Made by a program: the position numbers and the translations under genes
Part shown: in pieces, positions 8,006-61,200 of the stretch
Numbering within the stretch: the first letter of the stretch is position 1
Layout of the letters: each line of letters starts with the position of its first letter
The notes under the pieces: model-generated
The model's input: only the letters and a program-made list of their open reading frames with translations
Told to the model about the DNA's origin: nothing
Databases searched by the model: none
Source: Quercus robur
Lineage: Eukaryota > Streptophyta > Magnoliopsida > Fagales > Fagaceae
DNA: 64,000 nucleotides
NCBI RefSeq assembly: GCF_932294415.1
Contig: NC_065538.1
Location: forward strand, 76,583,834 to 76,647,833
Direction of reading: 5' to 3'

Positions 8006-8435
8006 GAGAGAACTAAAGACAATGAGAGTCTCAGATCACTTCAACTGAAGTTGTGTCTATGATCTCGTTTTATAAAAAAAAAAAAAAAAAAGATTTGGGA
8101 AAATGTATTGGGCCTCTATGTTTTGAATGAGGACAATTTCTTTCACATGCTTATAGTTATATCAGTTCTTAGTTTTGTCTTGACTCTTAAACAATGCATA
8201 CTTGCAATTTAAATGAAATCATGAAGTGCCATGTAATTTACCTTGATACAGAACACTGAGTGTTAAATGAAATTAGTACTAGTGAAATAAATTCTTATGC
8301 ATAATGATATTTCTTATTTTACAAAGCTCCAATGTATGTGATTTTGCCCTTTAAGAGGTCAACTACAATGATCTTTCTTAGTATTAGTTTTTTTTATGGT
8401 TGTTTGTTTATGCTTAAATTTGATGTCTTTAGGTC

Positions 8436-10757
8436 ATGGAACCCTCTACTGATGCCCCCCCTTCCCAAACAACACCCGCTGCCCAAGCTGGACCTGCTGT
8501 CCAAGCTGAACCTGTTCCCACTCCAACAAATGCTGAGGCACTTCCACCTAGACCTAGTGATAAAACCAAAGTGAGTGAGATAGCTGCTGATTGTGGTAAT
8601 AATAGGAAAAAGTCTAGTGCCTGGGATCATTTTGAAAAAATAAAAATGAGTGAGGGTCAATTTAAGGCTGTTTGCCATTATTGCCAAAAAACTTACCGTG
8701 CTAATAGTAAGGGTCATGGTACTACTAATTTATTGAATCATACACCAAACTGTGTTAAGAACCCTAATAGAGCTTCACTTAAAGGGCAACAAACCTTAGC
8801 ATTTGAACCCAAAATGAATGGGGAGGAAGGGTTTAAGCTTGTACCAACAGCCTTTACTGTTGAGGCTTCTAGGAAGGCACTCGCAGAAATGATTATAATA
8901 GACGAGTTGCCTTTTAGGTTTGTTGAAGGGTATGGGTTTCAAAAATATTCAACAACCTTACAACCTAAGTTGCAAATCAGGGATTTCCCATCTCGTCAAA
9001 CTGTGGCTAGAGATGTGATTAGCATTTATGGTGTTGAGAGAGAGAAACTAAGGGAAGCCTTGAAAGGTCGTAGGGTGTGCCTTACTACGGACACATGGAC
9101 TAGTATTCAAAATCTGAATTATATGTCCCTCACAGGTCATTTTATTGATGATGATTGGAACTTACATAAAAGAATTTTGAATTTTTGTCAAGTGGAAGAC
9201 CATAGGGGGGAGACTATAGGTAGAAAGATTGAGATGTGTCTCCGTGAGTGGGGTGTTGATGGCATATTCACCTTGACAGTGGATAATGCTTCCTCTAATG
9301 GTGCTACCATTAAATTTTTACAAACAGTAACTAAAGATTGGAAGGGGACTATTTTAGAACATGAGTTCTTGCACATGAGGTGTTGTGCACATATCTTAAA
9401 TCTGATTGTGGGAGATGGTATGAAAGAAATTGATCCGTCCATTGCTAGGGTGCGTGAGGCAGTGAGGTATGTGAAGTCCTCACCAAATAGAAATCAAACT
9501 TTTAGGAGTATTATGGAGAGATTAGGTATTGAATCCAAATGTTTACTAAGTCTTGATGTACCAACTAGGTGGAACTCTACCTATCTCATGTTAGATACTG
9601 CTGAAAAATTTGAGAAAGTGTTCCTAAGAATGGACTTTGAGGATGATAGCTATTCTTCATACTTTTTGAACAAGGAAAATAGTGGTGGTTTGGGATCTCC
9701 TTGTGGGGTTGATTTTCAAAATTGTAGGACATTTGTGGGTTTCTTGAAACTTTTTTACAATGCAACTAAAAAGTTCTCCGGTTCTTTGTATGTGACTTCA
9801 AATACTTTCTTTGACGAGATGTTTGTGATTCAAGAAAATATTGCTCATTTAATTAAATCTCAAAATCATCTCTTGAAAAACATGGCAACTAAAATGGAAG
9901 CTAAGTTTGAAAAGTACTGGGGGAAAGGGGATAAAATTAATAAGCTTTTGTATGTGGTTGTGGTGCTGGATCCAAGGAAGAAAATGAGGTTTTTGAAGTT
10001 TTCTTTTTTTGAAATTTATGGGGATGAAGTGGCTAATGAGATGGTTGACTTGGTGGGGAGTTTTATGGCTAGGTTGTATGATGATTACTCTAGGGTTGAT
10101 TCACCAAATGTGGTGCTACCAAGTGAGAATGAGAGGACACACATGGAAGGTGATACAGTTGGTTGTAGTGATCCGTATGCAATGGTTAATTCACGATATG
10201 AGCGGTTTTTAGAGGTTGAGAAGTCTATAGGGTGTAGCAATGAGATGGAAAAATATTTGGCTGAAAATTGTGAGAGTAGAAGGGATGTGAAATTTGAGAT
10301 TTTGGGGTGGTGGAAAGCCAATTCGGATAGGTACCCAGTTCTGTCCAAAATGGCTAGGGATGTGCTGGCTGTACCTGTTTCTACGGTTGCTTCTGAATCG
10401 GCTTTTAGTACCGGAGGGCGCATACTTGATCCATTTCGGAGTTCACTCTCCCCTCTCATGGTTCAAAATCTTATTTGTGCTCAAAACTGGCTGCAAGCCC
10501 GTGTCCCAATTTCTTTTCGCAAGTCAAAGGACGAGATGGAGGCCTTGGAGGATGAATTTCATGAATTAGGTAATATGTTTAACTTCCAATCTTCTTGTTT
10601 ACTAAGTGTTATTAAATGAGTCATATACTTGAGCAAAATTTAATCTATTGTCTCAATTTTTTCTTTTCTAGTTTTAAATCAAACAACAACAGCAGCAAAT
10701 TCTAGTTCCTGTTCAAACAAAGGTGGTACTCGTACCACAGTCAATATTGATGAATGA
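8436..10757 (+). CDS. hAT transposase (BED zinc finger, DDE core, dimerisation domain)
   Basis: Exons 8436-10569 and 10672-10757 join through a 102-bp GT-AG intron and give 739 residues without a break. The N-terminus is Pro/Ala-rich. A BED finger spans about 60-109 (C80-x2-C83-x18-H102-x3-C106). The RNase H-like catalytic core shows D219 in LTTDTWTS, D283 in TVDNASSN and E654 in VASESAF. The C-terminal hAT dimerisation region reads DPFRSSLSPLMVQNLICAQNWL. These residues correspond to the catalytic D-D-E of the family. The second exon adds an Asn/Thr/Ser-rich tail ending NIDE. If the intron were retained, the frame would stop at 10619 with 727 residues. The protein would cut and re-insert its own element and related nonautonomous copies in the nucleus. 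All key residues are present. Confidence 0.93.
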
Positions 10758-14703: not shown

Positions 14704-16300
14704 TCAAGAGAAAGAAATAACACAATTCAGTGACCCTTTTGGAACTGTTAGTAGATGATCATTAACTGCCTTTTGCTTTTGATCTTGCCCTGAGAATTCT
14801 TTAGACCAAGATATAACCATTCTTTCTAAGACTGCTGTATTCTGAAGCAAAGTCCTCACCACAAGTACTTCTTCTTCAGTTCCAAGAAAATCACCAATTT
14901 TGATAGTCTTAAGTTGTGTTAAGAAGCATGGAGGCACGTGATCCAATTTCCAATCCTCCTTGGTTAGTTCAATACCCTAAATGGTCATCAAATGAAAATA
15001 TTTTAGCCATGTGGCAATTGTAAATACCTGCAAGTAAAGCTTTCAGATAAAAACAAATGTGTGGTTATAACATAAGTTACCCCGTTCAATTCAAGAGAAG
15101 CAAGACACGGCGAGTTTTGGAATACTTTCATTAGTGCTCCAGAAGCCATGTCCACAAAACCCATGTAAAATTCAAGATGGGTCAGGTTATGAAACTTGGG
15201 TAGATGAGCAATGAATTCTTCTTTGTAGTCGAGGGCCTAGAAACAGGTTAAGACTATGCATCAGATCCCAAAAACATCAAATAAACCTTTCATTGAACCA
15301 AACAGATAAAAGCAACAACTAAACATACAATAGATGCATCAGTTCATTTGGTAAGCAAAAAGGAAAATACCTCAAATGTTTGAGGTGTCAGTACTAGACT
15401 TTCTACGTTAGAAAGCTCTTTTATAAGCTTGTTTGCATGATAAGCAACTTCTATCTGTCTTCCATCCACATTAATACAAGCCTCAACCAATGACAATGGA
15501 TTACAAAAACGATAATCATTCTTTAATCTACCTTCGTAAACAAAGAATTTAAGACTCATCCCAAAAATGATGACTTGACAACGGCTTTCACTGTCAAGGA
15601 GGTCATATATGACTAAGCTTTTAAGCATTGGAGCAGAAATACTAATGGCATTGATATTCTCCCAATAGCAATTATCTAGAGTCAACTCCTCCAAGACTGG
15701 GCAACCAGAAAAGAGCCGTTGTGTTGATTGGTCATCAGGAAATACAATATGCTTAAGAGTCAAGATCTTGAGACTTGGAAAAAAGATAGAAGAAGGAAGC
15801 CTGAGATTATAGCACATCTGTAAATTCAACACTTTGATTGATTCACAAGTAAATAGACTACGAGGCAAGACAAATGATTCTTCATTTAAGAAAAGGCAAA
15901 GATCTAACACTTGAACTTTATGTCTTACTGCAGAAAACACCCATGAATTAATGCTACATGCATCACAAAACACATCACAAGACAGTGAGAACTTTTGTAC
16001 ATTTGAAGACTTCCGAAGCACTAGTGCTCTTTCTACAAGATTCATGAACAAATTCCTATTCCAATCATTCATTTCGCTTGGCCCTTGTATAAAGTTGAGA
16101 TTGGGCATTGAAACCCACAGATATAGCCATCTTTTTGATAACACACTTGTTCTGACAGCATCTTTTGTCCCAAGGAAGGATAGTATGTGTTGAAGAACTA
16201 TGTCAGGTAAATTGCATAATTTATTTCTTCCCTTATTCATACTATGCTCCTTGCTGAGCTCCTGAGTTTTGGAATCATTTATCGGCGAACCTTGATCCAT
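14704..16300 (-). CDS. F-box/LRR/FBD protein, copy 2 (3 coding exons)
   Basis: Minus-strand exons are 16300-15371, 15236-15081 and 14976-14704. All junctions are GT-AG and phase 0, giving 452 residues. The F-box lies at about 28-70 (LPDIVLQHILSFLGTKDAV, VLSKRWLYLW). Leucine-rich segments follow (SLFTCESIKVLNL, GCPVLEELTLDNC), and the FBD domain is at the C-terminus (DHVPPCFLTQLKTIKI). Exon layout, the F-box region and motifs such as DDQSTQRLF (copy 1: DDHSTQQLF) show it is a paralogue of the 598-2291 gene. The start is the first ATG after a CTAG acceptor at 16316. The reading is intact. The likely role is as an SCF ubiquitin-ligase substrate receptor; its target is unknown. Confidence 0.87.
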
Positions 16301-16315
16301 GGTTTGATTATTTCC

Positions 16316-25638: not shown

Positions 25639-26077
25639 ATCTGAGGGATTCCGTGGGCCATCATCGTCAACATGATCATCAAATCCTGACCGTCAAAATA
25701 CTCCTGATTTGGCAAATCAGCCACAAATCCCAAAGGTTCACACTTTACACTCTCTCTTCTCCGCATTTTTTTATTATTATTATTTGTTTCTCTCTTTGCT
25801 TATTAATTAAAAAAAATAAAAAATAAAAAATCGAAAAATTTAAAAATCCTCACGGGAAATTCACCAATAAATTTTCTCTTTCTTTTTCTCTCACTTTCTC
25901 GCTCTATAACTTGTTTGTTTTAAATTTCTTCAATCTATGGTGGGAACTAAGAACCCTAACTCTTCGATTCTCACCCTTCAGTGGTGGGGCAACAACAACA
26001 AAATCACAACAATCGCAAAACCCTAACCCTAGTTCTAATTTTGCTACCAGGATTTTTATCCATTTTTTTTTTTTGCC
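25501..26077 (+). promoter_or_regulatory. PCFS4 promoter/leader with CT microsatellite and short uORF
   Basis: A (CT)n tract spans about 25606-25636 and more pyrimidine runs follow to 25900, a pattern common in plant 5' leaders. An upstream ATG at 25937 opens a 29-codon frame that ends at TAA 26024-26026, 51 bases before the main ATG. It would matter only if transcription starts before 25937. No TATA box was assigned with confidence. Confidence 0.35.
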
Positions 26078-29000
26078 ATGGACTCCGAAAAGCTCTCCTC
26101 CGTTAACCCTAGGGCCACCACCGCGACCGCTACTACCGAAAAGCCTCCTCCGCCGCCGATTCTCGAGCGGTTCAGGGCGCTGCTGAAGCAGCGAGACGAA
26201 GAGCTCAGGGCTTCAGCCGGAGGAGGAGTCGACGACGACGATGAAATCGACGAGAGCTTCGTCGTTCCGCCGCCGAGTTCCGAGGAAATTGTGGAGCTCT
26301 ACGAGATGTTTTTGGGGGAGCTTACTTTCAATTCGAAGCCAGTTATTACGGATCTCACGATAATCGCCGGCGAGCAGAAGGAGCACGGGAAAGGCATCGC
26401 GGATGCGATTTGCGCTCGGATTATCGAGGTTCGTTTCGGTGTTTGTGGAATTTTGGGGAGAGGGGTGAGAGAGATTAACCAACAATTAGGGAGGGCTTCT
26501 CTGAATTTTGTATCGGTTATGGGGTTTTAGGGTTTTTTTTTTTTGGGTTTGTATTTCATTTGTACTCGGCTTAGTGTTGTGTAATTTTGAAGTTTTTTGA
26601 GTTCTTCAAAGTGTAAAGATTAGAATTTGGTACTTTTCTTAGTCTCCTTTGTTTTTATTCTTTGTGTGCTGTTTGGTTTAGGCAAAGGTAAAAGATTCAC
26701 AATTTCAATGAAGTTTAAGATGGGCGTCTAATCCATCTGAATTGATATTCCTAGTCTAACTGTAATGGTTACGGATTGTTAGGAAATGGTGCTAATATTG
26801 TGGTAGAATTTAAGGATGCAACCTATGAGAACCTATGGGAATTTGGTTACAAGTTGAATAATTTTCGAGAATAGGGCCAAGGGCCAAGAGCCTTGTATCT
26901 TAATAGCACTTCCTGTTGTTTTCAACGGAGACGTCTAGGGTTCAATCCCTTCTCCCCTAAGTATCAAATTATCAAAAAGTTATTGAGAACAACGGGGAGG
27001 TTTGTGGATGATACCCTTGAGTTTAATATTTCACATGATATGTAATCATGTAGTTCAGTAAATTATAGACTGCTGCGGTTTATTTTGAAAACAAAACCTA
27101 AAGCCTTCCAAGTTTTCCTCTATATGGGTTTTTTTCCCTGTGTTTTCCTTTGTAGTGTTTGATTTTGTGCAAATTCATTAGAATTTGTATGTCTTGAGAG
27201 CCCCTTATATTTTACCCCTAAAGTGCATTCTTCAAATTTCTACCTTTATTGGTAATTTTTATTTTGGTGGAGCTACTTTTTTGGGAAATAGGGGAACTAT
27301 TGTTTGTTGTTTGTTATTCTTATGTCATCCCTTATATGTCTTCTGCAGGTCCCAGTCGAGCAAAAACTTCCTTCACTATATCTTTTAGACAGTATTGTCA
27401 AGAATATTGGCCGTGATTATGTAAGGCATTTCTCTCCCCGTCTGCCTGAGGTGAGTTTTGCATAATCATTTGCATATATTTTAAGTCCCTAGTTTTCTTA
27501 TCACATGATTTTGACAATATTCTTATTTAATTTTTTCCAAGGTTTTCTGTGAGGCATACAGGCAAGTTCAGCCAAATCAGTATAATTCTATGCGACATCT
27601 CTTTGGCACCTGGTCAGCAGTATTTCCACCTTCTGTCCTTAATAAGATTGAGGCACAACTGCAATTTTCTCCTTCAGTAAATAATCAATCATCTGTCTTG
27701 GCTACCATGAGGGCTTCTGAATCTCCACGACCAACACATGGCATTCATGTTAACCCAAAGTACCTGCGTCAGTTGGAACATTCAACCCTGGATACTGTAA
27801 GCTCTCTTTCTCTCTCTCAAAGGACATGGGTTGGACTGCTGCCTTTATGTAGTGCAGTAGTTGAAATTCTGGTTACTTGTCAAGATGTTTTATTCTAAAT
27901 TCTTGCAGTGGGATATCTGTAGTAACTACAGTGTTGCATCTTCTAGTCAAGATGTTGCTGGACTAGCAGTAGCAATCTATATATTTCACCAGAATTTGGA
28001 ATATACTGACATCTATGTCTTCATTCATTATAAAGTTCTGCAACTCAGATATTTGGATATTTTGTAGGAGGTGTGGCTGACCATTATGATTAGATGTGGA
28101 AATATTTTCTTCTTAGATCGTATTCTATAATTGCTGATATGATATTTGAGGGCTTAGCAATAGCCTATGTTAAGGCTTTATTGTACTCAATTACATTCAA
28201 AGAGGGTGAATTTATTAAAATTCCAGCAGCTTATTTTAAGCTTTGAGGGTGTGAATGCCATCTTCTTCTTTCATGTGATTGCTTTGGAAACGTAGGTCTG
28301 ATGTCTTAGGGTTTATTTTTCTTTCTTTTTGGATCTATTAACTGTTTTAACACCAAACTCATTCAATATCCAATCTTTTATTACCTAACACTACCTAAAT
28401 CCTTTCACATCAAAATCTATTCAAGAACCTAATTTAGTGATGACTTCTTAAAGATCCTACATCATAACAAGTTTTGTAAGAGAGATTTTCTTGTGTTTTC
28501 TATACTATGGTGTGGAAAAGAAATAAAATTACTTGATTAGATGGCCAAATGAGTGATGCCTAAGACTTGTGGAGTAAACATGTTTGATTTAGTCAAGGCC
28601 TACTGGTGCCTTCCCAAATTCGTTGCTGAGGTTTCTTTAGGCACCAAATGCCAATTAATATTTCGATGTAAACAACACTAGAATTCATACAGCATTTATA
28701 ACTCCTAGGCCCTAGCCATCATTTGGGGTCCACCCCAAGGATTCCTCGTAATTACTTGATGTGAGTGGGATGGGGGGAGTACAAACGCTTGAGAGAATAG
28801 TCAAGTGCTCGAAGAGCTCTGTATACTCTCAATAAAGGAAGAAAAAAATAGAATTCATACAGAACTGGTAGGAACTCATGAGTTACCGTACCTAAATCAC
28901 TTGGGACCATTTCATTATCTGGCTTGTGCCTACTTATAAAAAAATTACCTGGCTTGTGCCAAATGTGCATTGTTTGTGTTTAATTACTGATGGTGTAGAA

Positions 29001-32000
29001 TCAGATGTACCTAAAAAAAAGATATTTTGGCTGGCTGTGGTGCAGTTGTTTAATTTGGGCATTTCACAGGGGCCTGTTTGGTTGTCCTTGAAATTGAATA
29101 GCTCTCCATCCCTATTCTGTATGTCATCTATTGTGTTAAAAAGTTTGAAAAACTGTGGAACTTTATGGAATTCAAGACACAATCTATGTCTTTACTTTTG
29201 CTGAGAACTGTTAACTTTTCTTCATTGTCCCTTTCAAGATGGTTGAATTGCACATAAGTCCAGAATAGTTTGCTGATGAGCTTTAGCTCCTACAAGAATT
29301 TGAGGGTAGGGTTGGGGGTAGAGTAAAGTTGTGGCTTCAAGACCCACTAAATATGTGTTACTTACTCACCAAAAACATTTTATTAAAAACAGACCGTGAG
29401 TAGAACGATTTAAGTTTCTTATGACATCCAAACAAGCCCTTGTAGATCATGGTGTTCTGTGAAAAATAGTTTCTACTTAGGGTGTGTTTGGATATTGCTT
29501 ATTTTGCTGAAATTGAAAACTTATTATTGAAAGTACTATAGATAAAAGTAAAAGTTAGTTAAATTGTACAGTGAGGCCCATGAATAGTATCAAAAAGTGC
29601 ATGAACAGTACTGTGGGACCCACCATTTTTACAGCAAAATGCAAAATTTTTTCATCCCCAACGCAATCCAAACGCACGCTTACAAATGCATGTGATATAT
29701 TGTGAAACAATGACACACATATCATAGGCTAGAGGATATGGAAAAGAAGTGCTATAATGAGCCCAAAATGATGGTTAACTTAGAATTGTTTTGGGGGGAA
29801 TGGGATTCTGTATTCTGATCTCCTATCAATATTTTCAACTATCTTGGTTCCAGATATTAATTAAATCTAATTTTTTATTTTTGTGCACTTGATCTGCTTG
29901 TGTGCATTCTTTTGGTCTACATCTTTTATTTTCCTGTTTTTATTTTTTCATTTATTTCATAAATGTAGGGAGAAATCTGCTGTGCAACTTTATTTTTTTT
30001 GGTTGTCCTTTATATAAGTTAATTTCAATGTTATTGTTTCATCATCTTATTGTAACTGAATTTAGAAACCTGCCAAGACGAACTGTGTTACTTTCTGTTG
30101 TTGCTCAGTTGTGCATGAAATGGACAGCTTTGGAATTTAAAATTTGTAATTTGTTTGTAACCCTTGCAGAATATTCGGCATCCTAGAGGAACTTCAGCTT
30201 TAAAAATGTATGGTCAAAAACCTGCCATTCCATATGATGAGTTTGATCCTGGTCATGCAGAGGTTGTATCCTCACAGGTTGGAGCCCAAAGATTGAGCTC
30301 AACTGGAGATGCAGGTCATACACCTTTTGCCTTTGGGGCTAATAAGGTGCATCCACCTTCAACTGCCAGACTTGCAAGACCCTCTTCGCCTTCAAGAACT
30401 GGGCCTGATAGGTCTTTATCATTAGCAGGTGATGAATTTGCTGCAGAAAATTCTCCTAGAAGGTTTGTTGATAGGGCCTCTCCATCTCATCCATTTGAGT
30501 ATGGACTTGGTAGAGCAATTGGTAGAGATGATGAAACAAGTGGCTGGCAGAGAAAACACTATTCTGATAATAATCAGAAAACTACTGCTGTATACCACCT
30601 TGGTAATGGACATGAGCACCAAAGACCGAGAGCTTTAATTGATGCATATGGAAATGACACAGGGAAGAGATCTTATAACAATAAGCCTCTGCAGGTTCAA
30701 CGCCTGGACACAAATGATATAGACACTAAGGTCGCTCCAGCATCATGGCAGAATACTGAAGAGGAAGAGTTTAATTGGGAAGATATGAGCCCCAATTTAG
30801 GAGACCGTGGTACAAGTAATGATTTCTTGTCATCAGCTGTTCCACCATTTGGTAGCTTTAGAACAAGGCCGGGTTTTGGAGTGCAGAGTGCTGCCCCTTT
30901 GGAGCCTGATAATAGGAGCAGTTGGTTGAGTCAGGCTCAGCTTCCTGCAGTTGATGATTCTTCTATAAATACTGAAGATCCAGTCTCCTTATCAAGTGTA
31001 TGCTTCCTCCACTTGTTTGCTGTGCCATTCTTGATTTTTAGGCAGCTTGCTTAGTTAATCTTGAATTCAAGTGATATTCTTCTGGCAACATAATCCGCAG
31101 TTATGCCAAGTGGTGTGATTTTTGTTAGTTAATTTTCACTTCCTACCGTATCTTTTTCCTTTGCTATCATGTGATTAGAGCTTTCCTTGGAGTATTGTGG
31201 TTCCTCTATCGCAACCCTGTCTTTTCAGCTGTTTACGAACATATTTTGGGGTCTTGAATTGAGGGTGAATACCCTTATTTTTTCCTTTTTAGTAATTAGA
31301 ATCCAATCGTGCATATTATAATTTATAAACACTATTTGCTATAGAGGGGATTGGTGTGATGCAAATATTAACAAGATTAAATACCATAAGATCAAGTCAT
31401 ATTCTTAAGTTCCTTTAACTTAATATGCTGTTCATCATGTTTTATCTTCTTCTGTTTTTTTTTTTTTTTTTTCCTGTTGAACTTTAGCAGTTAATGGTAT
31501 GTCATTAAGACTTAAAAAAAAATGTATTTCATTAAGAAAAAGAGAGGGAGGGGGTGGGTAATACATCTTTCTAATTTCTGGAACTTTTGGGCATTGGCTA
31601 TAGTAGGGTTCATGATTTTATGTTTTTGGTTATTATGCCTTATGTGTCCACTGTGCACTAGTTTGAGTTTTATGAGTCAAGGTTTCCAACCCCAATAATT
31701 TTTAAATTTGTGGTCCCGGTCAAACTAGTTTCCTTCTCTCCATCTTCTATAATTCCACTCCTTCAGCATCGTTACTTTAAACTGCAACTGTAAATTTTAA
31801 ATTATTCTTCCTTAGCTGAAACACCCTGCTTTTGATAATCCTTATGTTATTCTTCATCAAAATATAATACCCAAAATGTCAAAAAGAGCCTTTAATCTCC
31901 TTTCACACAAGACAACTGCCATTGAGAACCGTTCATGAAAACCTTCTTGTTGCCAAATTTAGAACTCAAAATGTGCCCTCTTGCTCCTTCACAAACCAGA

Positions 32001-34167
32001 AACCACTGATTTTCCCAACCTTTAGCCAATAGTAAAGTCATGGTAGAAAATTATAATACCCTATTTAGTGCTTTCTGACATCATTTGATGTTTTTGATCA
32101 CAGTTTTTTTTTTTTTTTTGACTTGTCTCCAAAATGCCAACTTCCCTGAAACTATTAATATGTTCCAGGAATTGATAATGATTAGAGAAAATGAACTTCC
32201 AACCTTACATTTGAATTTCTGCAATTTTGACTGCAGTTTGGTCGTGGATCAACGCGGAAGATATCTGGATTCCGAACTGAGAGAAATCAGATTCGGGATT
32301 CTCGCTATCCTCAGGAGGCCTGGAATATGCCTCCCCATCTTGCCAAAGGAAGAGAGAGGAATTTCCATATGCCCTTATTGGCAAGCGGTACATCTCCATC
32401 AGATTGTGAAAAAATGTCTCCTCTTATAGATAAGCTTCCAGATGCTGACCCACAAATTTGCGGACCCCCTACAATTACATCAAGAATTGGTCCTAGTCTT
32501 GACTCTTTTGGTGTAGAACCTCGGCCTGGTGTTGTACCCTCATATATGGGGGTAAGACCTCCCCTAAATGTGCATAACTCTCACCCACCACATCTGCTGC
32601 CTAATTTTATGCAGCAGAAACATATGAGGAGCCAATTCCAGTCAATAAATACTAGCAATACTGTCAATAATCTAGGTCCAAATAGGTCTTTTTATATCCC
32701 TGAGCAGCAGATGGATGGTTTTGGAAACAAGGAGCTGAGTTCTACAAAGCTGCAACAATTGCCCAGTCAGCATGCAGGACTAATTCCTCTAAGCCAGGCA
32801 CAAGTCACTCCTTTACAGCCACAATTTCTTCCATCTCAGGATGTGCATCAATCTGCAGCAGCTGTGTTGCCACCTCATTTTCTGGCAGCCCCTTTGAATC
32901 ATGGATATAACTCACGAGGGCACGGTGCCACTGTTAGTACAGGTCCATCAAATCCTGTACCTGGTGTACAGTTGAATATCCTAAACAGGCCTTTACATTT
33001 ACAGGGAGGCTCATTGCCACCTCTACCTCCTGGCCCCCCTCCCGTGCCATCACAAATGATGTCTCTCACACAAAATGCTGTTCCCGGTGTCTCTAGTCAA
33101 CAGCCGAGCACTGCATTTCCTGGATTGTTTGATTCTCTCATGGCTCAGGGTTTGATCTCATTGAACAAACAGGCTCAGGTATGCATTAATATTTCACTTT
33201 ATGCTTTAAATGTTGAATTTTGATTTTTGTTTTCTTTTCCTTGAAATGCAGTTGTTAGATTGTTTCTCAACCAAGTTATTTGATATGTAGGATTCTGTAG
33301 GAGTTGAGTTTAATGCGGACCTTCTCAAGGTGCGTCATGAATCTGCAATAAATGCCCTGTATGCTGATCTCCCCAGACAATGCACAACCTGTGGCCTTAG
33401 ATTCAAAAGCCAAGAAGAGCACCGTAGTCATATGGATTGGCATGTAACTAAGAATCGTATGTCTAAAAACCGAAAGCAGAAGCCTTCTCGTAAGTGGTTT
33501 GTAAGTGTGAGTATGTGGCTCAGTGGTGCAGAAGCATTAGGAGCTGAAGCAGTTCCTGGGTTTTTACCTACTGAGACCGTTGTAGAAAAGAAGGATGATG
33601 AAGAAATGGCTGTACCTGCTGATGAAGATCAGAATGCATGTGCATTATGTGGAGAGCCTTTTGAAGAGTTTTACAGTGATGAGGCCGAAGAATGGATGTA
33701 TAAGGGGGCTATTTACTCAAATGCACCCAATGGCTTGACAGTAGGCATGGATAGGTCTCAGTTAGGCCCAATAGTGCATGCTAAGTGCCGGTCTGAATCT
33801 AGTGTGGTTTCCTCTGAAGATTTTAGACAAGAAGAAGGGGTATGCATTTCTTGTTCAACTCTTTCAGAATTTCCACTTATATACATTTATCAAAAATAAA
33901 AAAATAAAAAAAGTCTCTTATATACTTTCTTCTGAAAGTCTGTCATTGTTTTATGGTTAAAGCCATAGTATTTTGTCTGAGGACTGTGTTATGCATTCAT
34001 GTATCTATCAATGAGCAATATATTACTCAAGACCAACGCAATTATGTGAGTATTTTCATTGTATTCTTATGCCTAAAGCTCAACAAATGTTTCATATACA
34101 TTCTTTTAATTGTTGTGTGCAGGGAATTACTGCAGAGGGTAGTCAAAGAAAACGTATGCGGATTTAA
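26078..34167 (+). CDS. PCFS4: PCFS4/Pcf11-like pre-mRNA cleavage and polyadenylation factor (7 coding exons)
   Basis: Exons are 26078-26428, 27349-27450, 27542-27796, 30170-30997, 32237-33178, 33291-33839 and 34123-34167. All junctions are GT-AG and phase 0, giving 1023 residues. An RNA polymerase II CTD-interacting domain spans about 67-192 ([45 protein letters not shown]). A long low-complexity Pro/Gln/Ser middle follows. The C-terminal zinc-binding module has C857/C860 with H870/H873/H877, then C943/C946 and H989/C992, around the hallmark [20 protein letters not shown]. It ends in SQRKRMRI, like Arabidopsis PCFS4. The family bridges the Pol II CTD and the 3'-end cleavage machinery; Arabidopsis PCFS4 affects FCA transcript processing and flowering time. 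The protein is longer than Arabidopsis PCFS4 (about 800 residues from memory), mostly in the middle. Introns 3 (2.4 kb) and 4 (1.2 kb) are large. Confidence 0.93.
26876..26985 (+). mobile_element. tRNA-derived SINE in PCFS4 intron 1
   Basis: An A-box-like TATCTTAATAGCAC is followed about 45 bases later by the B-box-like AGGGTTCAATCCC, with CAACGGAGACGTCT between them and a tail CTAAGTATCAAATTATCAAA. This is the layout of plant tRNA-related SINEs. Possible target repeats are TTCGAGAATA upstream and ATTGAGAACA downstream. Pieces with the same ending occur at 50280-50350 and, inverted, at 54933-55018. Confidence 0.6.
29480..29679. mobile_element. Tourist-like MITE in PCFS4 intron 3
   Basis: This 200-bp segment has imperfect inverted ends (GGGTGTGTTTGGAT at the left, ATCCAAACGCACGC at the right) and is flanked by TTA on both sides (29477-29479 and 29680-29682), the PIF/Harbinger target duplication. 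A related copy lies at 36036-36236 and further diverged ones near 13674 and 24940. It codes for nothing. Confidence 0.65.
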
Positions 34168-36283: not shown

Positions 36284-39200
36284 CTACAAGTTTTGAGAAG
36301 CAGGGAACTGTTTCTCCATTGGGTAATATTTGTGATTTAAAATCATTTCCGCATCCTTATCTCCACGCCCACTACAATTTACCACAACCTTTGTACCAGT
36401 AGGCAAAGTGGGGCAAAGTTTATTCAGAAACGCCAATGCATGAGAGGCCTCCAACGATGGAATTATACCTTCCAATCTGCATAACAATTGGCAAGCTGCA
36501 AACAATAGGGAACCACAAATTAATAGTCTCAAGTTTAGAAAATAGTATTCTCCATAATTTCATTTTCTTGTACATATCAATTATTATATATGAAAAAAAA
36601 TCTTGTTGCGCACTCAATAATGTACAATCCGTACGTATCATATTAAGAATTGCATATGTGATATCCACAATAAAATGTGAATAGTAATAGTGTGTACGGA
36701 TAATATATATTAGTAAGTATGTGATAATCATTACTCATTGTATAATTGCATCATCACATACCATCTAGGGCTTCCTTGTCCGTGACACTGTAGTATTCTG
36801 CACGTCCTGTGTCTTTAAGAAAGCTCAGCTCTGGGCCAACAGCTGGGTACTCTAGCCTGCATTTATTTGTGGATTAGGCACATCTACATCACACTAAAAA
36901 GTAGCCATTACTATCATCTTAATTAATTTATTAATGGACAAAGTTTAGCAACAAAATTAATTGTACCTTAAGGCTAAAAACTCACTCAATAAAATAAATA
37001 CTACAACATATTTTGAAAATCTAACCGTTGAATTGCATGTTTTTTACGCCCTTAATACACATGTTAAATTTTGTGTCAATCGGATATCATTTACTATATG
37101 ATCTATAAACTTATATTTTGTACATAATTTTAAATTACAAAAACTTGCAATTTAAAAAATTTATTGATGACATAGCTATTGATCTTTAATTTTCTTGAAA
37201 TTTTGCAAGTATGGAGGATATAAGAAGAAGATGTAATCCAATGGTGGATTTGTCAAAATTCACATCCAATAAAAAGATATTAAGTAAGTTTATAGCCTAA
37301 GACTACAACTAATTTTGTAGCTAAACTTTGTCCTTAATTAATTTAATAATTGGTCTAAACTAGTATTAGCAACTTGCATTAGACGTGACAATATATATTC
37401 ATACGTGGATTAAGTGAAAGGAAGGTTTAAAGTTTAAACAAATTGGGTCTTAAGTCTTAACCCGAGAGTCAAAAATCACTTGTCTCAAACATTATCTTTT
37501 TTTTTTGGTAAGCTCAAACATTATCTTTGCTTTTTACTGTTAAATATAAATTTGATTATTTTTTGGGGTCAAACGTTATCCTACTTTATTATATATATCA
37601 CGTTGCATCTTTCTTTCGAAAGTGCTGATTTTGTAATCATTTTTTTTTTTTTTTTATTCTTATAAAAATATGCGGTGGTTCGACCTTGGCCTATGCTCTA
37701 TTGTCTATAGTGTAAATAAAAATGCTACTCCTACTCCTGTTTCAATTTTTGTATATAAGTTTCTCAAAAAAGTTAAAAAAAATTGTATATATGCACTTTA
37801 TGCTGTGTATACAGGTAAAAAGTGTGCACAAAACTGTAAATTAAATTAACCATAGGGAGTTTTGTAGCTTGTTGACATATTTTGGTATTTTCAATGTAAA
37901 TATTTAAGATTCAAATCCCTTAACCATTAAATATATATATAAAAAAAATGTAAATTGACGAAAGAAAAAATTTCTCATTGTCTCCTCATTTATAATTAAA
38001 AAGTCTGTAAATATGTTATTGAAAATAATGATTTTTTATCATAAGATCAAGATATCAACTAATTTTATGGTTTAAGTGGGTTCGAATATTAAATCTTTTA
38101 TTTCATAACAAATTTTTTTACTAGTAGAGTTAATTGTAACTCATTGTTATTGTGTTAGTTTAATCAACATTTTATATTAGAATTGTACTAAAATTATAAT
38201 TTTTTATATGCTAAATGAATTAAAAATTTGGTGCTTTGGTTCTTACCCCACGCCAACTGAGTGTGGCCTTATAATTTGGCCTTCCTCATCTTGCAACAAG
38301 TAGCTCATGGTTCCATGGTAAACTCCCACATAACCTTTAGCCAAAGTTGCAGAGTGCTTGTCACTTTCCAAGCCAAACCCACCAGCCTCAACTCCAATCA
38401 ACCTCACATCTTTTTCTTTAATAAATTCATGGAACAACCCCAATGCGTTAGAGCCACTCCCTACACATGCAACCAACACATCAGGCTTGCCACCCCATTT
38501 CTCCATTGCTTGTCTCCTTGTTTCTTTTCCAATCACTGATTGAAACTCTCTGACCATGCTTGGACATGGATGAGGCCCCACTACTGTTCCTGTCAAGTAA
38601 TAGCTGCTCTCTAAGTTTCCCACCCATTCCCTGAAGGCCTCCGAGGTTGCATCCTTAAAATTTCCATCAACTGATTTAACCTATATATTAACAGCATTCA
38701 TGTCAGTTTTTGCAAAAGTTTATGTCTATTTAACATAAAAATTTATTTTACATACTCATCTTTTTAAAATATCACATATCAAATTATTTATTTTACACTA
38801 TATTTTATTAAATTAAATTTTCTTATCATTTATAATTGTTTCTTTTTCTTTATACACAATAATCAAACATTCACTCTCATTTTTAATTCTTGATATTCAC
38901 TCTTGTTTTTCATTTTCGAGATACATAAAAAAAAAATAAGAAATTAAATGTATAAATTTACATAATTATTGTAGGGTCACGTTCCAGAACGAACCGAAAT
39001 TGTAGTTGGGTCAGGACGTGAGTGGGCCCATACAATATCATTTGTAGAGAGTGGGATCGAAAGGCTAAATCATGTTTACCCGGCGGTGGTTTTGTTAAGC
39101 TGTTCATACATGGTTCAGGTGTATTCACCTTTGGAACCCCTCCCTCTCCCCGTGGGACTGGAGGCCCCCCTTGTTTAGGTTACATATTTTTTCTTTTATA

Positions 39201-41015
39201 CTAGCATGCGTTCAATTTCCTTCGTCCACGTGTAGGGTCGACCTTTTCAAGACTGATACTTGTCCCATCTGTCCCAGACCTAAGTCGTTGGGAGAGGCTG
39301 ATAAAGCCAAGGAACACGGCTCTGTTAGGTGCAAAGATCAGTCTGGGAAAGGCAGTAAGGTCAGCCTTTCCAAGATATTTCAGATTTTCTTTTAAGATTG
39401 TCCCTATGCCGCTTTTGCCCCTTTTCCTGGTGGAGCTTTGGACCAAACCGAGGGCTGCACCGTCCTCGGCTGCCTCTTTGGGCCCATGTGTGCTTTACAC
39501 TAATGAGCTTGGACTAACATCTTCTTCGGCTTGGGCCTTAAAGCTTCCCATGAACAAATGGGCCTAGCCCATATATTGTTGGGCCCCACAATTATTATAA
39601 CAAATTTATAAATTTACATAATTATAGATTGACGGATGTAGATTATTTTTTAATTAAAATTTTATAAATTTTACACATTTTTCAATTATACGCCAAAACA
39701 ACAATTTTGATGGTCAATATTTACCTCTCTACCGTACTATTTTGGAGCTATATTATATTTCTTGCATGTCAGAAGTGATTATTCATGAAGGGACTATTGG
39801 ATTGGTCCACTGTCCTTTTTTCGTTTTAAGAATCATGCCAACAAGCACCATATAGCAATCATCGAGAGGTTGTGTCGTAGGGTTCTCCTTCAAATATGGT
39901 CCCAGTTATAATAAATTATATCCACAGCCCACAGATATTCCTTTGTATTAGGTTTTGTTTTTGGGAAAGCTTATTTATTTATTGAAAATTCGTAAAAATA
40001 TAGTTACATAAAAAATAATGAGACTTTAAAAATTGATACCTCAAATTTTCAAGATTTGAATAATTGAGTGTGTGTTGCGCAAATATGTAATAAATCTCAT
40101 ATTATATGTTTACCATGTAAATTTTGAGTTTATAAGTAATTATAGAAACTCTAATAGTAAATTTATAACATTTGACGCATCTAATATATATCATAATAGT
40201 TTGTATGTTTGTTGAATACACAATTCACTTTTAAATGTGAACTAGCCTCTATTATATGTTAATTATGTAGACTCTTCCTTATAGCCATTAAAATATGATC
40301 TAAAGAATGAAGTTACATCATTTTGTTACAGGTACAATATATTTGTCTAGTCTTTATTGAATATGATATCAAATCAAATCTTTATAAAAATTATCATTTT
40401 ATATTAGAGAAAATAACTCTGGGAGTGAAAAAGTTTTTGAACGTTTCAAAAGCTTGTACCTGAATTGAATTATTTAACCATTATCTATAATAAAGTTTGA
40501 ACTCAAAATCACTAATTCTTCAAAAAAAAAAAAAAAAAAAACTCAAAATCACTGTTATGATACCACAGTAAAATCATAAAACATGACTGTCAGAAAAATG
40601 TGAATTATTGTAAGAAATAAAGAAATATTTATGTATACCTCAGCGCCCAGCAACTTCATCAACACCAAATTAGAAGACTGTTTCTCCATATCTTTGGTAC
40701 CCATGAAGATTGTGCACTGTAAAGAAAGTTTGGCACATGCAGCAGCTGTGGCCACACCATGTTGTCCAGCACCAGTGGCTGCCACAACACTTTTTCGGCC
40801 TAGACGTTTGGCAATCATGGCCTGGGCTATGGCGTTGTTGATCTTGTGTGCTCCACCATGGTTCAGATCTTCTCTTTTTAGATATATATCTGGGCCTTCT
40901 CCATTATTGTTCTTCTTGTAGTGATTTGTGAGCCGCTCGGCAAAGTATAGAGGTGTTTCCCTCCCAACATAGTCTCCTAGTGCCGTTGCTAGCTCAGCCT
41001 AAAATAAATTCATCC

Positions 41016-41054
<39 letters not shown>

Positions 41055-41823
41055 AGCTTTTGCATGAAGAGTCATTTTAGCATTTTTCTTTCCCTCTTTT
41101 GGTCATGCTATATATGAATAATTAGTCTAATGACACAAAAACTTCCACAGTATTATTTATAATTTTTTAAGTGGTATGTTGTGATTAGTGTACAATAAAA
41201 ATGACATTCATATTAGAATGATATGAAAATAATATTACATCAATTATAACTTATCACATTTTTAAAATATGAAAAAGGTCAGGAAATGATGTGTATTTAG
41301 AGTGTTTAAGAGCTCAAAAAGTTTTTTTTTTTGGTTGGGCTAGCTTCTAGCTAAAATCTAACATTGGTTTTAAACTCCCACAACTTTCTTCCGGTTAATG
41401 AAAGAAGAATAATGTCATTCACAATGGATTTTTAGTATTCTTAGTTTGTGTAGCGCTTAGTTGTGATTGTTTAATGCAAACCTGAAACTGGGCGTCATGC
41501 AAAACCAAATTGAATTCAGCTTCAAGATCGCTCAAGCAAGAAATCAATGTCTCTGGCACGAAATTCCCTCCAAACCTCCCAAATTTTCCTTTACATCCTT
41601 TCCTTTCATGATCAGTTTCTTCAACTAGTTGTGGCTTTGGCAATGTCGGCCTCCTCATAATCAAACTCCTAGTCGAACCGATAATATCCTTAACCAAAGT
41701 GTTGTGATCAACAACTACAGCACGAACCACAGAGGCATTGCCTATTCTTCTCTTAACACTAACATGTCCACTGGTTGGACATATTTGGGAAATAAGAAGA
41801 TCAGTTCGCATATTACAAGCCAT
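36284..41823 (-). CDS. Tryptophan synthase beta-like protein with altered active site (5 exons)
   Basis: Minus-strand exons are 41823-41482, 40998-40639, 38680-38247, 36856-36762 and 36495-36284. All introns are GT-AG and the frame is unbroken over 480 residues. The N-terminus could be a plastid transit peptide; an in-frame ATG also lies at 41895. Body motifs include [13 protein letters not shown], the PLP lysine K166 in [40 protein letters not shown] and SGRGDKD. Plant TSB makes tryptophan from indole and serine in plastids. Several near-invariant positions differ (Salmonella TrpB numbering): E109 is A188, R141 is K220, G233 of the phosphate loop is S309, D305 is E381, H313 is L389, and the HSGTATLKDA loop is three residues shorter. 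E350 (E426) is kept. The last 20 or so residues match no usual TSB end. A paralogue with changed or lost activity is likelier than a normal TSB. No other TSB gene is in view. Confidence 0.88.
36936..37333. mobile_element. MITE with about 45-bp inverted repeats in intron 3 of the TSB-like gene
   Basis: The left end GGACAAAGTTTAGCAACAAA and the right end (read on the other strand) GGACAAAGTTTAGCTACAAA start inverted repeats of about 45 bp with a few mismatches. The flanks are direct repeats, TTAATTAATTTATTAAT on the left and TTAATTAATTTAATAAT on the right. The length of 398 bp and long TIRs suggest a Mutator-like MITE. It codes for nothing. Confidence 0.68.
38970..39590. mobile_element. Lone LTR (fossil) in intron 2 of the TSB-like gene
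   Basis: The segment starts TGTAGGGTCACG and ends TTGGGCCCCACA, with ATTAT on both sides (38965-38969 and 39591-39595). It is 621 bp long and clearly GC-richer than the surrounding intron. No internal region is present. The short open frames inside it on either strand match no known protein. The family is undetermined. Confidence 0.72.
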
Positions 41824-58268: not shown

Positions 58269-61200
58269 TCATGCATTGTCACACATGACTGCAGCCCTTA
58301 TCCTTTCAACTGTGCACTTTATTAGACTGTTAACTGTTGCCACTGATCCGAGGGAGAGTTTTGCAGTTGGAACTGAATCTACTAAGATCTGAAACGCAAC
58401 TGTCAATAGAGAGCCACCAGACCCAACCTCAGCAATTCCTCCACCATTTAGACCAGGCCCATCAGGAAGTATAGCAAAACCAGATGGTAGAAGGGCAACG
58501 TAATCTGGATCCCCACCACTTAAGACCACATTCATGGCAACAATATCAACTGGAGCATAAATTACATATGAGCCGGTAGAATCAGTGCAACTCTCTTGTA
58601 GTATCAGCATATTGCTCTGGCTTGAATTTGCACTCTACATTTTATATTGACACATAGAATTCCAATTATACAATGTTAGCTTCAATTTGGTGAGATGAAT
58701 TTTCATTTAGATTAAGCAGTAGATATGCGCAACACAGCTAAACCTTACATTTACCCGGAGTAAAGAGACACAGTTGCCTGGATCGCGACCATTAGCTATA
58801 TGTGCCATTTCTTGAACTAGTCCACCATTTGAAAGGATATCCCACTGTAAACAATATAAAAATTTGTAAGCTAGTAGAGATTCAATAACTTCAAAGATAA
58901 ACATTCAAAATACTAATATTTTTAAGATGGTACAGAAATGCATGTTCTCTGAAGGACAATGACTAGTAGGATACTTCAATTTAAACATTAACATGCTATA
59001 TTGGCTGTGAGCTACATCACACAAACTACTTCAATTTAAACTTTTGAATTTTCTTTAGTAGGAGAAATACAACAATTTACCAAGAAACATCATCTATTGA
59101 ATTAAAAATGTATCATCAAAAAAATCAGCAAGATCCTTTAACATAGAAGGAGAATGGTATGCAAATTTCTAAAATCTTCATATACCTCACTCCGAGAGTT
59201 CTCATCCCTAAGGAAATCAAAAACCCTCTTTGGTGGAACTCGAATCCAAAATGAAGTTGCAGCACTCAGCACAATACCAGGAGGCCTGCCTGGATCATCC
59301 ATACTCTTCCTGGTCATAACCCTTACATCATCCGAACCAGCTGCTGATAACGTTGTCCATGCATGTGCCGTAGAAGCACCCACACCAGTACAAAAGCTCA
59401 CCACCATTCTTTCTGCCAGCTTTAACATACTCTTCCTTCCTTCTGCGCTTGTTATTACTGAAAATTAGAAATGATTTAGAAAGGGCTGGACAAAAAAACA
59501 GGGTGAAGGAATTTTCTATTCTTGTAAAATGAAAGATTATAGGCCGACAAGCTCTAACTCAACTGGAAGCTCCTTCTCTTATAAGTGTTTGGTGAATGAA
59601 TTTTCTATTCATGTAAAATCAGAGAACAATTCTTACCACATAGATCTCCTGCTGGAATATTATTAGCCATTGAACTTGCAAGACGTTCACATTTTCTATC
59701 AAGGGTAGCCACCCAACGTTTTGCTCCAAAAGCAATACCAGAATTAACCAGTGGTCTGTATATATTGTGAACGGTTCTGTCATCCACCTCGACATGTTCC
59801 ACCCATACAACCTAAAGAATCAAGAAAAAATTGTACAGTTAGTCTTGACTACATTATTTAGTATGAAAAAAGTGCACTTGGTAAGTGATAATTACTTTTG
59901 CATAACCATTTGGCAATTCTTGGATTAAGCAACCAGATGGCCTTCGTCGACTCCTTGAAATTGGACTAAGGCGTAGATTATCCAAGGAAACATCAACAAC
60001 AGCCCATGTTCCATCTGCATTCTGTTTACAATACCTCACAAAGTAATTTTCACGAGTTGGGACAAGCGGTGAAGGGACTTGAAATTCAGCAGTCATCTGT
60101 AGGAGAACAAAGTTAATTAGGTACATATCTTCTCTTGCTGAAATCACTAGCTTTCTTTCCAGGGAAAGCCAATTAGACTCATTTCAACCATAACTTTAAG
60201 AACAAATGAAATTCTCAAGTACCACTTGCAAGGCTCCATTATAATTCCCTGCCACGCCGGTTGATAGGACTTCTAAAGTCATTGCTCTTGAAACAATACC
60301 GCAAAACACAGATGACCATCGATTCTGAAAATAACATTAATGTAAAAAACATTTCAAATATGTTTATATAATCCAATAATCCGGTAAAAACTATAGGAAA
60401 AGTTCCTACCACATCCATTAGAATCTCAACAAGGCTAATATGATTCATTATAACGACCACAGACTCCCTTGAAGCTTCTGTCTTTAGCCCCAAAGGTTTT
60501 GGGCCGATTCCTCTAGGGAAAGTCCTCAAGTATTCTTCTTCATTTAGTATCTCAGTTGAGTTGTCACTGGAAACCCACAAAGGCTCTCCAGCCTGAGCCA
60601 TTCTTACTAATTCTTCCATTGCTGCAACAGCAAGCTCAACAATCATGGGCTTATCGGCATCAGTGGGACCTGTAATTGATCTGAAAAGATCATTCCCTCC
60701 ATACATCTCCCCCACAAAGCCTGACTGTGCCCCAAAATTCCCAACCCCAAGATCAAGCGAGCGGGAAGGCACATGAGATGAAAGGTGAGAATATGAAGTC
60801 GAAGGCTTGCCAACATATTTTGCTGCAATTCCAGATATCCTATCAATCTGCAACCAAAAAAATAAAAAAAAAAAATTTCAAAATCACAAGCCTGTGACTA
60901 AAAAGAAACTCCAAGAAGTATGTCATAACACGTGTGTCCATTTGTGTAAGATATTTTTTCCCAGCTTTTTTAGCTTATTCATCTTATTTAGTTTATGTAC
61001 AATTTTTTAAAATTTTATTTTTTCCATGTAATTTAGGTACAGTTACACTTTTATCAACTTTTTAAGCCCAATAAGCTAATGGAAATAAGCTCTCTTAAAG
61101 CCATTTATGCTGGTTACCTCTTCTCTTAAACGAGCATTCTCGATCCTCAAATGTTGCTCGTCAAATGACATCTCACCAAGAGCTGCGGGTCCCCCACAGT

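Follow-up and report, generated by a model that had tools for sequence, protein, structure and literature searches.

A probable TSB-like gene, encoding an altered paralogue of the tryptophan synthase beta subunit, in the genome of Quercus robur

In a window of 64,000 nucleotides of the Quercus robur genome (C5:76583834-76647833, on contig C5; genome total 785.7 Mb), we identified on the minus strand, at 41823-36284, a gene that very probably (with a probability of about 0.9) is the TSB-like gene of this species, i.e. a single-copy paralogue of the gene for the beta subunit of tryptophan synthase (TSB), whose product has lost the joining of indole with serine and activates the alpha subunit (TSA), which then delivers free indole. 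The sequence and structure of this gene, its marker residues and the selective constraint acting on it are established, and so is the occurrence of TSA and normal TSBs in the same genome. For this orthologue, we infer by analogy that the protein would bind and activate TSA with release of indole, and a role in scent or defence may be expected on the same ground. As both the kind of gene and its mechanism were published in 2025, the Q. robur gene is a fresh example of them.

The gene comprises five exons with GT-AG splice sites, which join to a TrpB-type protein of 480 residues with zero internal stops. Among the candidate sites tried, 60 GT-AG combinations were open, and the 480-residue version was retained because its boundaries and phases agree with those of the two canonical TSB genes that this genome contains (hereafter the own TSBs). 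It is also the version given in a preliminary description of this stretch, whose five exons splicing to an unbroken protein were borne out. Exon lengths are 342/360/434/95/212 nucleotides (nt), compared with 354/357/443/95/176 and 327/357/443/95/176 nt in the two own TSBs, exon 3 being 9 nt below its length in both of them. Since the five exons share the splice sites and phases of both own TSB genes, the gene is a duplicate and not a retrocopy.

Exon 1 (41482..41823) contains the start codon and an N-terminal extension of about 78 residues, probably a plastid transit peptide and similar in length to the extensions of the own TSBs, after which the TrpB core begins. The lysine that holds pyridoxal 5'-phosphate (PLP), K166, lies in exon 2 (40639..40998) together with G162, A188, the TGAGQHG motif and K220. 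Exon 3 (38247..38680) carries a loop reduced by three residues, followed by K243, R251, the GSGSN motif (308-312) and Y355, and exon 4 (36762..36856) carries E381, A384 and L389. Exon 5 (36284..36495) contains the SGRGDKD motif, the C-terminal tail, which exceeds that of the own TSBs by 12 residues in the alignment, and the stop codon (included in the coordinates). A wrong splice as the source of the short loop and of the changed residues was rejected, as each of them lies in the interior of an exon, namely exon 2 for A188 and K220, exon 3 for GSGSN, Y355 and the loop gap, and exon 4 for E381 and L389.

The protein was compared with the two own TSBs and with 80 cyanobacterial TrpB loci, i.e. 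the best 80 of at least 562 confirmed relatives in the scan; these loci are all cyanobacterial according to their titles and several come from one genome, so that the sampling is close rather than broad. Salmonella numbering (Lys87, Glu109, Arg141, Asp305; COMM domain 102-189) is used as it appears in PMC9512447. The PLP lysine K166 is retained, and TGAGQHG and SGRGDKD are kept as well. In contrast, at six positions where a single residue is found in 80/80 cyanobacterial loci and in 2/2 own TSBs, the Q. robur protein differs: A188 stands where the catalytic Glu109 is expected, K220 for Arg141, E381 for Asp305, L389 for His313, G162 for Thr, and S309 for the second Gly of GGGSN, which reads GSGSN. 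The numbers G233 and H313 follow the preliminary description or the customary Salmonella numbering. In addition, the AEV...KDA stretch that forms the loop has 13 residues, versus 16 in all 80 cyanobacterial TrpBs and both own TSBs, and Y355 is found where all of these carry Leu. The residues named in the preliminary description (K166, A188, K220, E381, GSGSN and L389) were all found as stated, as was the loop shorter by three residues, while G162 was absent from its list. It had also considered the R141-D305 bridge to be replaced; the substitution by K220 and E381 is indeed there, but the word is too strong, since Lys and Glu may still pair.

Among the columns shared by both TSBs in which at least 95% of the 80 loci carry one residue, 54 of 249 were changed in the TSB-like gene, against 6/255 and 2/251 in the matching count for the two own TSBs. 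These changes are enriched in the COMM domain (25 of 66 columns, versus 29 of 183 elsewhere; Fisher p = 4e-4 in a naive test). The canonical plant TSB (TrpB1), represented in this genome by the genes at C37:13.65 Mb and C37:36.25 Mb, shares with the gene under study its fold, PLP lysine, five exons and splice phases, whereas the Glu, Arg, Asp, GGGSN, His and full loop are kept only in the TSBs. We also observed that S344 and A384 replace an Ala and a Gly constant in the own TSBs and in 80/80 cyanobacterial loci; in Salmonella numbering they would correspond to G268 and S308 of the monovalent-cation site, another allosteric element.

This set of residues is that of a protein described by Florean et al. 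(2025), according to whom a TSB paralogue named TSB-like is carried by all core eudicots examined, and who studied it in Aphelandra, Lamium, Nicotiana, Populus and Arabidopsis (PMC12727527). In that description, three features mark TSB-like. Glu190 (AsTSB numbering; E109 in Salmonella) is replaced, in nearly every case by Ala but in Solanaceae by Ser or Pro, Asp386 of AsTSB is replaced by Glu in all members, and position 222 holds Arg or Lys; these 3/3 markers are matched by A188, E381 and K220, respectively. As described for core eudicots, the paralogue occurs beside normal TSB, TSB type II and TSA. Beyond the published marker set are G162, S309, L389, Y355, the three-residue gap and the longer C-terminal tail. 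The functions of TSB-like have been demonstrated biochemically in other species; for the Q. robur gene, the steps shown are those visible in its sequence. According to the published results (PMC12727527), TSB-like incubated with TSA and substrates gave indole and no tryptophan, co-purified with TSA and competed with TSB for it, and in N. benthamiana it was strongly upregulated after herbivory along with indole emission. The same source reports that the A190E mutant of TSB-like gained weak tryptophan synthesis and that E386D produced less indole, while the reverse swap E190A/D386E in TSB abolished tryptophan synthesis without creating an indole output, which implies that further residues matter.

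By analogy with these proteins, the Q. robur TSB-like would take the place of TSB on TSA and, once bound, would hold TSA in its activated state. In line with such binding, the two residues of helix beta-H6 that correspond by offset to K167 and R175 are unchanged (K243 and R251), and R175 is described in PMC8187860 as a contact of alpha T183. The activated TSA would then cleave indole-3-glycerol phosphate to free indole, and the latter, which TSB-like would be unable to use, would escape instead of being converted to tryptophan. Tryptophan synthesis would be lost because the indole-activating Glu is lost (A188). The E381/K220 pair, standing for Asp/Arg, may keep the closed, TSA-activating shape, in line with the proposal made in PMC12727527 that the longer Glu386 locks the active conformation permanently.

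The genome also contains the partners that such a mechanism involves. A genome search with the TSB-like protein, in which 19/19 first-look candidates were scored, gave 17 matches in four places, i.e. five in the TSB-like gene, five in each of the two TSB genes of C37 and two in a gene of C2; a single TSB-like locus was found. From its TETGAGQWG motif and low identity, the C2 gene looks like TSB type II. A search for TrpA gave four matches in three places. At C41:534-540 kb, exon-like matches extend across TrpA positions 11-256 and would together represent one apparently complete TSA gene. The place at C41:884-886 kb (stretch C41:881500-887500) covers positions 14-83 only and is fragmentary, and at C5:75.82 Mb (stretch C5:75820500-75828500) positions 14-83 as well as 198-256 are covered, one of the matches being interrupted by an in-frame stop. 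TSB-like is thus present in addition to the canonical TSBs and TSA and not in their stead, the genome having two TSBs, one gene that resembles TSB type II and one TSA that appears to be complete. The C5:75.82 Mb fragment and the TSB-like gene are separated by about 0.8 Mb on the same contig; a TSA/TSB-like cluster was considered and dropped, as this TrpA-like place is fragmentary in the 8 kb examined and one of its matches has the in-frame stop.

Family profiles and structure databases assign the protein to TrpB. Its score with the NCBIfam model TIGR00263 (trpB) is 526.8 bits (cut-off 392.45; 623.7 for the own TSB at 13.65 Mb), and among the sequences of the PDB the reconstructed TrpB LBCA-b comes closest to it (5ey5, E 7.2e-149). 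A working tryptophan synthase with odd residues would agree with a score so far above the cut-off. Such an enzyme is nevertheless hardly credible, for the Glu is described as essential in PMC12727527 and PMC9512447, and its loss is accompanied here by changes of the closing bridge, of the loop and of the Thr. Of the features of an active TrpB, the family profile and the PLP lysine are present, whereas the indole-activating Glu and the Arg-Asp closing bridge are absent (A188, K220, E381).

The retention of K166, TGAGQHG and SGRGDKD could also point to a changed PLP enzyme that uses another nucleophile, e.g. phenol, like engineered TrpB variants without this Glu, but PLP residues are equally expected to be kept where the fold must be kept, and the rank in the TIGR00263 family is uninformative on chemistry. 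The engineered tyrosine synthase TmTyrS1 (8egy), which we take to carry a changed catalytic Glu, is among the PDB relatives by sequence (E 9.9e-128). It shares the TrpB scaffold, but it is a laboratory-evolved bacterial enzyme, whereas the TSB-like tested makes no tyrosine. Other work cited in PMC12727527 indicates that bacterial TrpB accepts phenols when E105 is replaced by Gly, Ala or Ser; in the experiment that the same source reports on a plant protein, however, Aphelandra TSB-like supplied with phenol gave no tyrosine. We consequently regard a changed enzyme as very unlikely.

Selection was assessed with a three-sequence codon model over 379 codons. The ratio of nonsynonymous to synonymous substitution rates (dN/dS, omega) was 0.076 on the TSB-like branch, as a rough value, versus 0.032 on the TSB branches, and the difference is not significant (one-omega log-likelihood, lnL, -3100.75; 2 delta-lnL 3.0). 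Fixing omega at 1 on the TSB-like branch changed lnL from -3099.24 to -3118.48 (loss 19.2; 2 delta-lnL 38.5). The branch average is that of purifying selection, which speaks for a protein held under constraint over a long time. A pseudogene that has stayed open by chance, or that began to decay recently, would fit the large number of changed constant columns relative to the own TSBs, as well as an insertion of 621 bp within intron 2 (38970..39590, strand unassigned). This insertion begins with TG and ends with CA, has ATTAT at both flanks and looks like a solo long terminal repeat (LTR) or a small LTR element, with no part in coding function. Against decay stand the 480 open codons, the five-exon structure with its introns intact, the rejection of omega = 1 and the clustering of the changes in the COMM domain instead of an even spread, and we judge it extremely improbable. 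The preliminary description, which named dN/dS as a check, had favoured, over simple decay, either an altered reaction or a pseudoenzyme with a regulatory role. The pseudoenzyme agrees with the published TSB-like, which has the same two marker substitutions, and the absence of decay agrees with the open five-exon frame and an omega of about 0.08 on the branch; the changed reaction finds no support, since the one TSB-like tested, that of Aphelandra, is reported to give neither tryptophan nor, from phenol, tyrosine.

Some observations weigh against the assignment to TSB-like. The synonymous divergence (dS) on its branch is about 2.4, i.e. saturated, which makes omega rough and uninformative on very recent decay. 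At C41:534-540 kb, the first ~10 matched positions of TSA and its transit peptide were not found. In a FastTree phylogeny of 83 sequences, the three plant genes group together (support 1.0), but the TSB-like gene pairs with the C37:36 Mb TSB (0.81) and is not placed outside both. This pairing would be expected if a TSB-like protein had evolved independently in this lineage, arising by convergence from one of its own TSBs instead of being inherited from the TSB-like ancestor of core eudicots. Yet core identity to the two own TSBs is 66% and 68% (257 and 266 of 389), while these share 88% (345 of 392) with each other, as if TSB-like had split first. The near-equal identities suggest a split before both TSBs, which the tree does not confirm. 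The TSB-like branch is about three times longer in this tree, so that the 0.81 pairing may come from long-branch attraction, and TSB-like is described in all core eudicots examined (PMC12727527). An independent origin appears very improbable indeed.

If the gene is TSB-like, the protein might have been remodelled beyond the two known substitutions in such a way that indole escapes, a tentative idea that we consider rather unlikely. Three residues are lost just ahead of helix beta-H6, and this loss would lie at the alpha-beta interface. Y355 falls, by offset counting and not by structural alignment, on the position of Salmonella Tyr279, a residue which according to PMC8187860 lines the indole tunnel and is able to reach into the channel. 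Together, the loop gap, Y355 and the COMM-domain changes could narrow or misalign the tunnel, and indole made by TSA would exit to the stroma rather than enter a dead site. Such remodelling, if true, would provide a structural basis for release that is lacking in the two published residues, given that the reverse E190A/D386E swap gave no indole output.

As a discovery, the gene is modest, the mechanism being in print. It nevertheless adds to the recently described indole switch, which concerns a compound of both scent and defence, a genome in which a single TSB-like locus is accompanied by one TSA gene that looks complete, and it illustrates that a true pseudoenzyme may be recognised from the residues of a sequence. 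The loop gap, Y355, G162, S309 and L389 are concrete positions for comparison across TSB-like proteins, and further changes are worth comparing because, in the published experiments (PMC12727527), the two known residues account for only part of the effect.

Other frames were noted in the window. On the plus strand, 8433-10619 holds an open frame of 728 residues for a hAT-family transposase with BED zinc finger, RNase-H-like and dimerisation domains, and frames at 26039-33899 belong to a gene with a terminal PCFS4 zinc-finger domain (33291-33899), the membership of the upstream frames in the same gene being a guess. On the minus strand, two similar F-box/leucine-rich repeat frames (1278-2327 and 15344-16315) lie about 13 kb apart, and a START-domain frame is found at 60239-60877, presumably reminiscent of HD-ZIP IV homeobox proteins.

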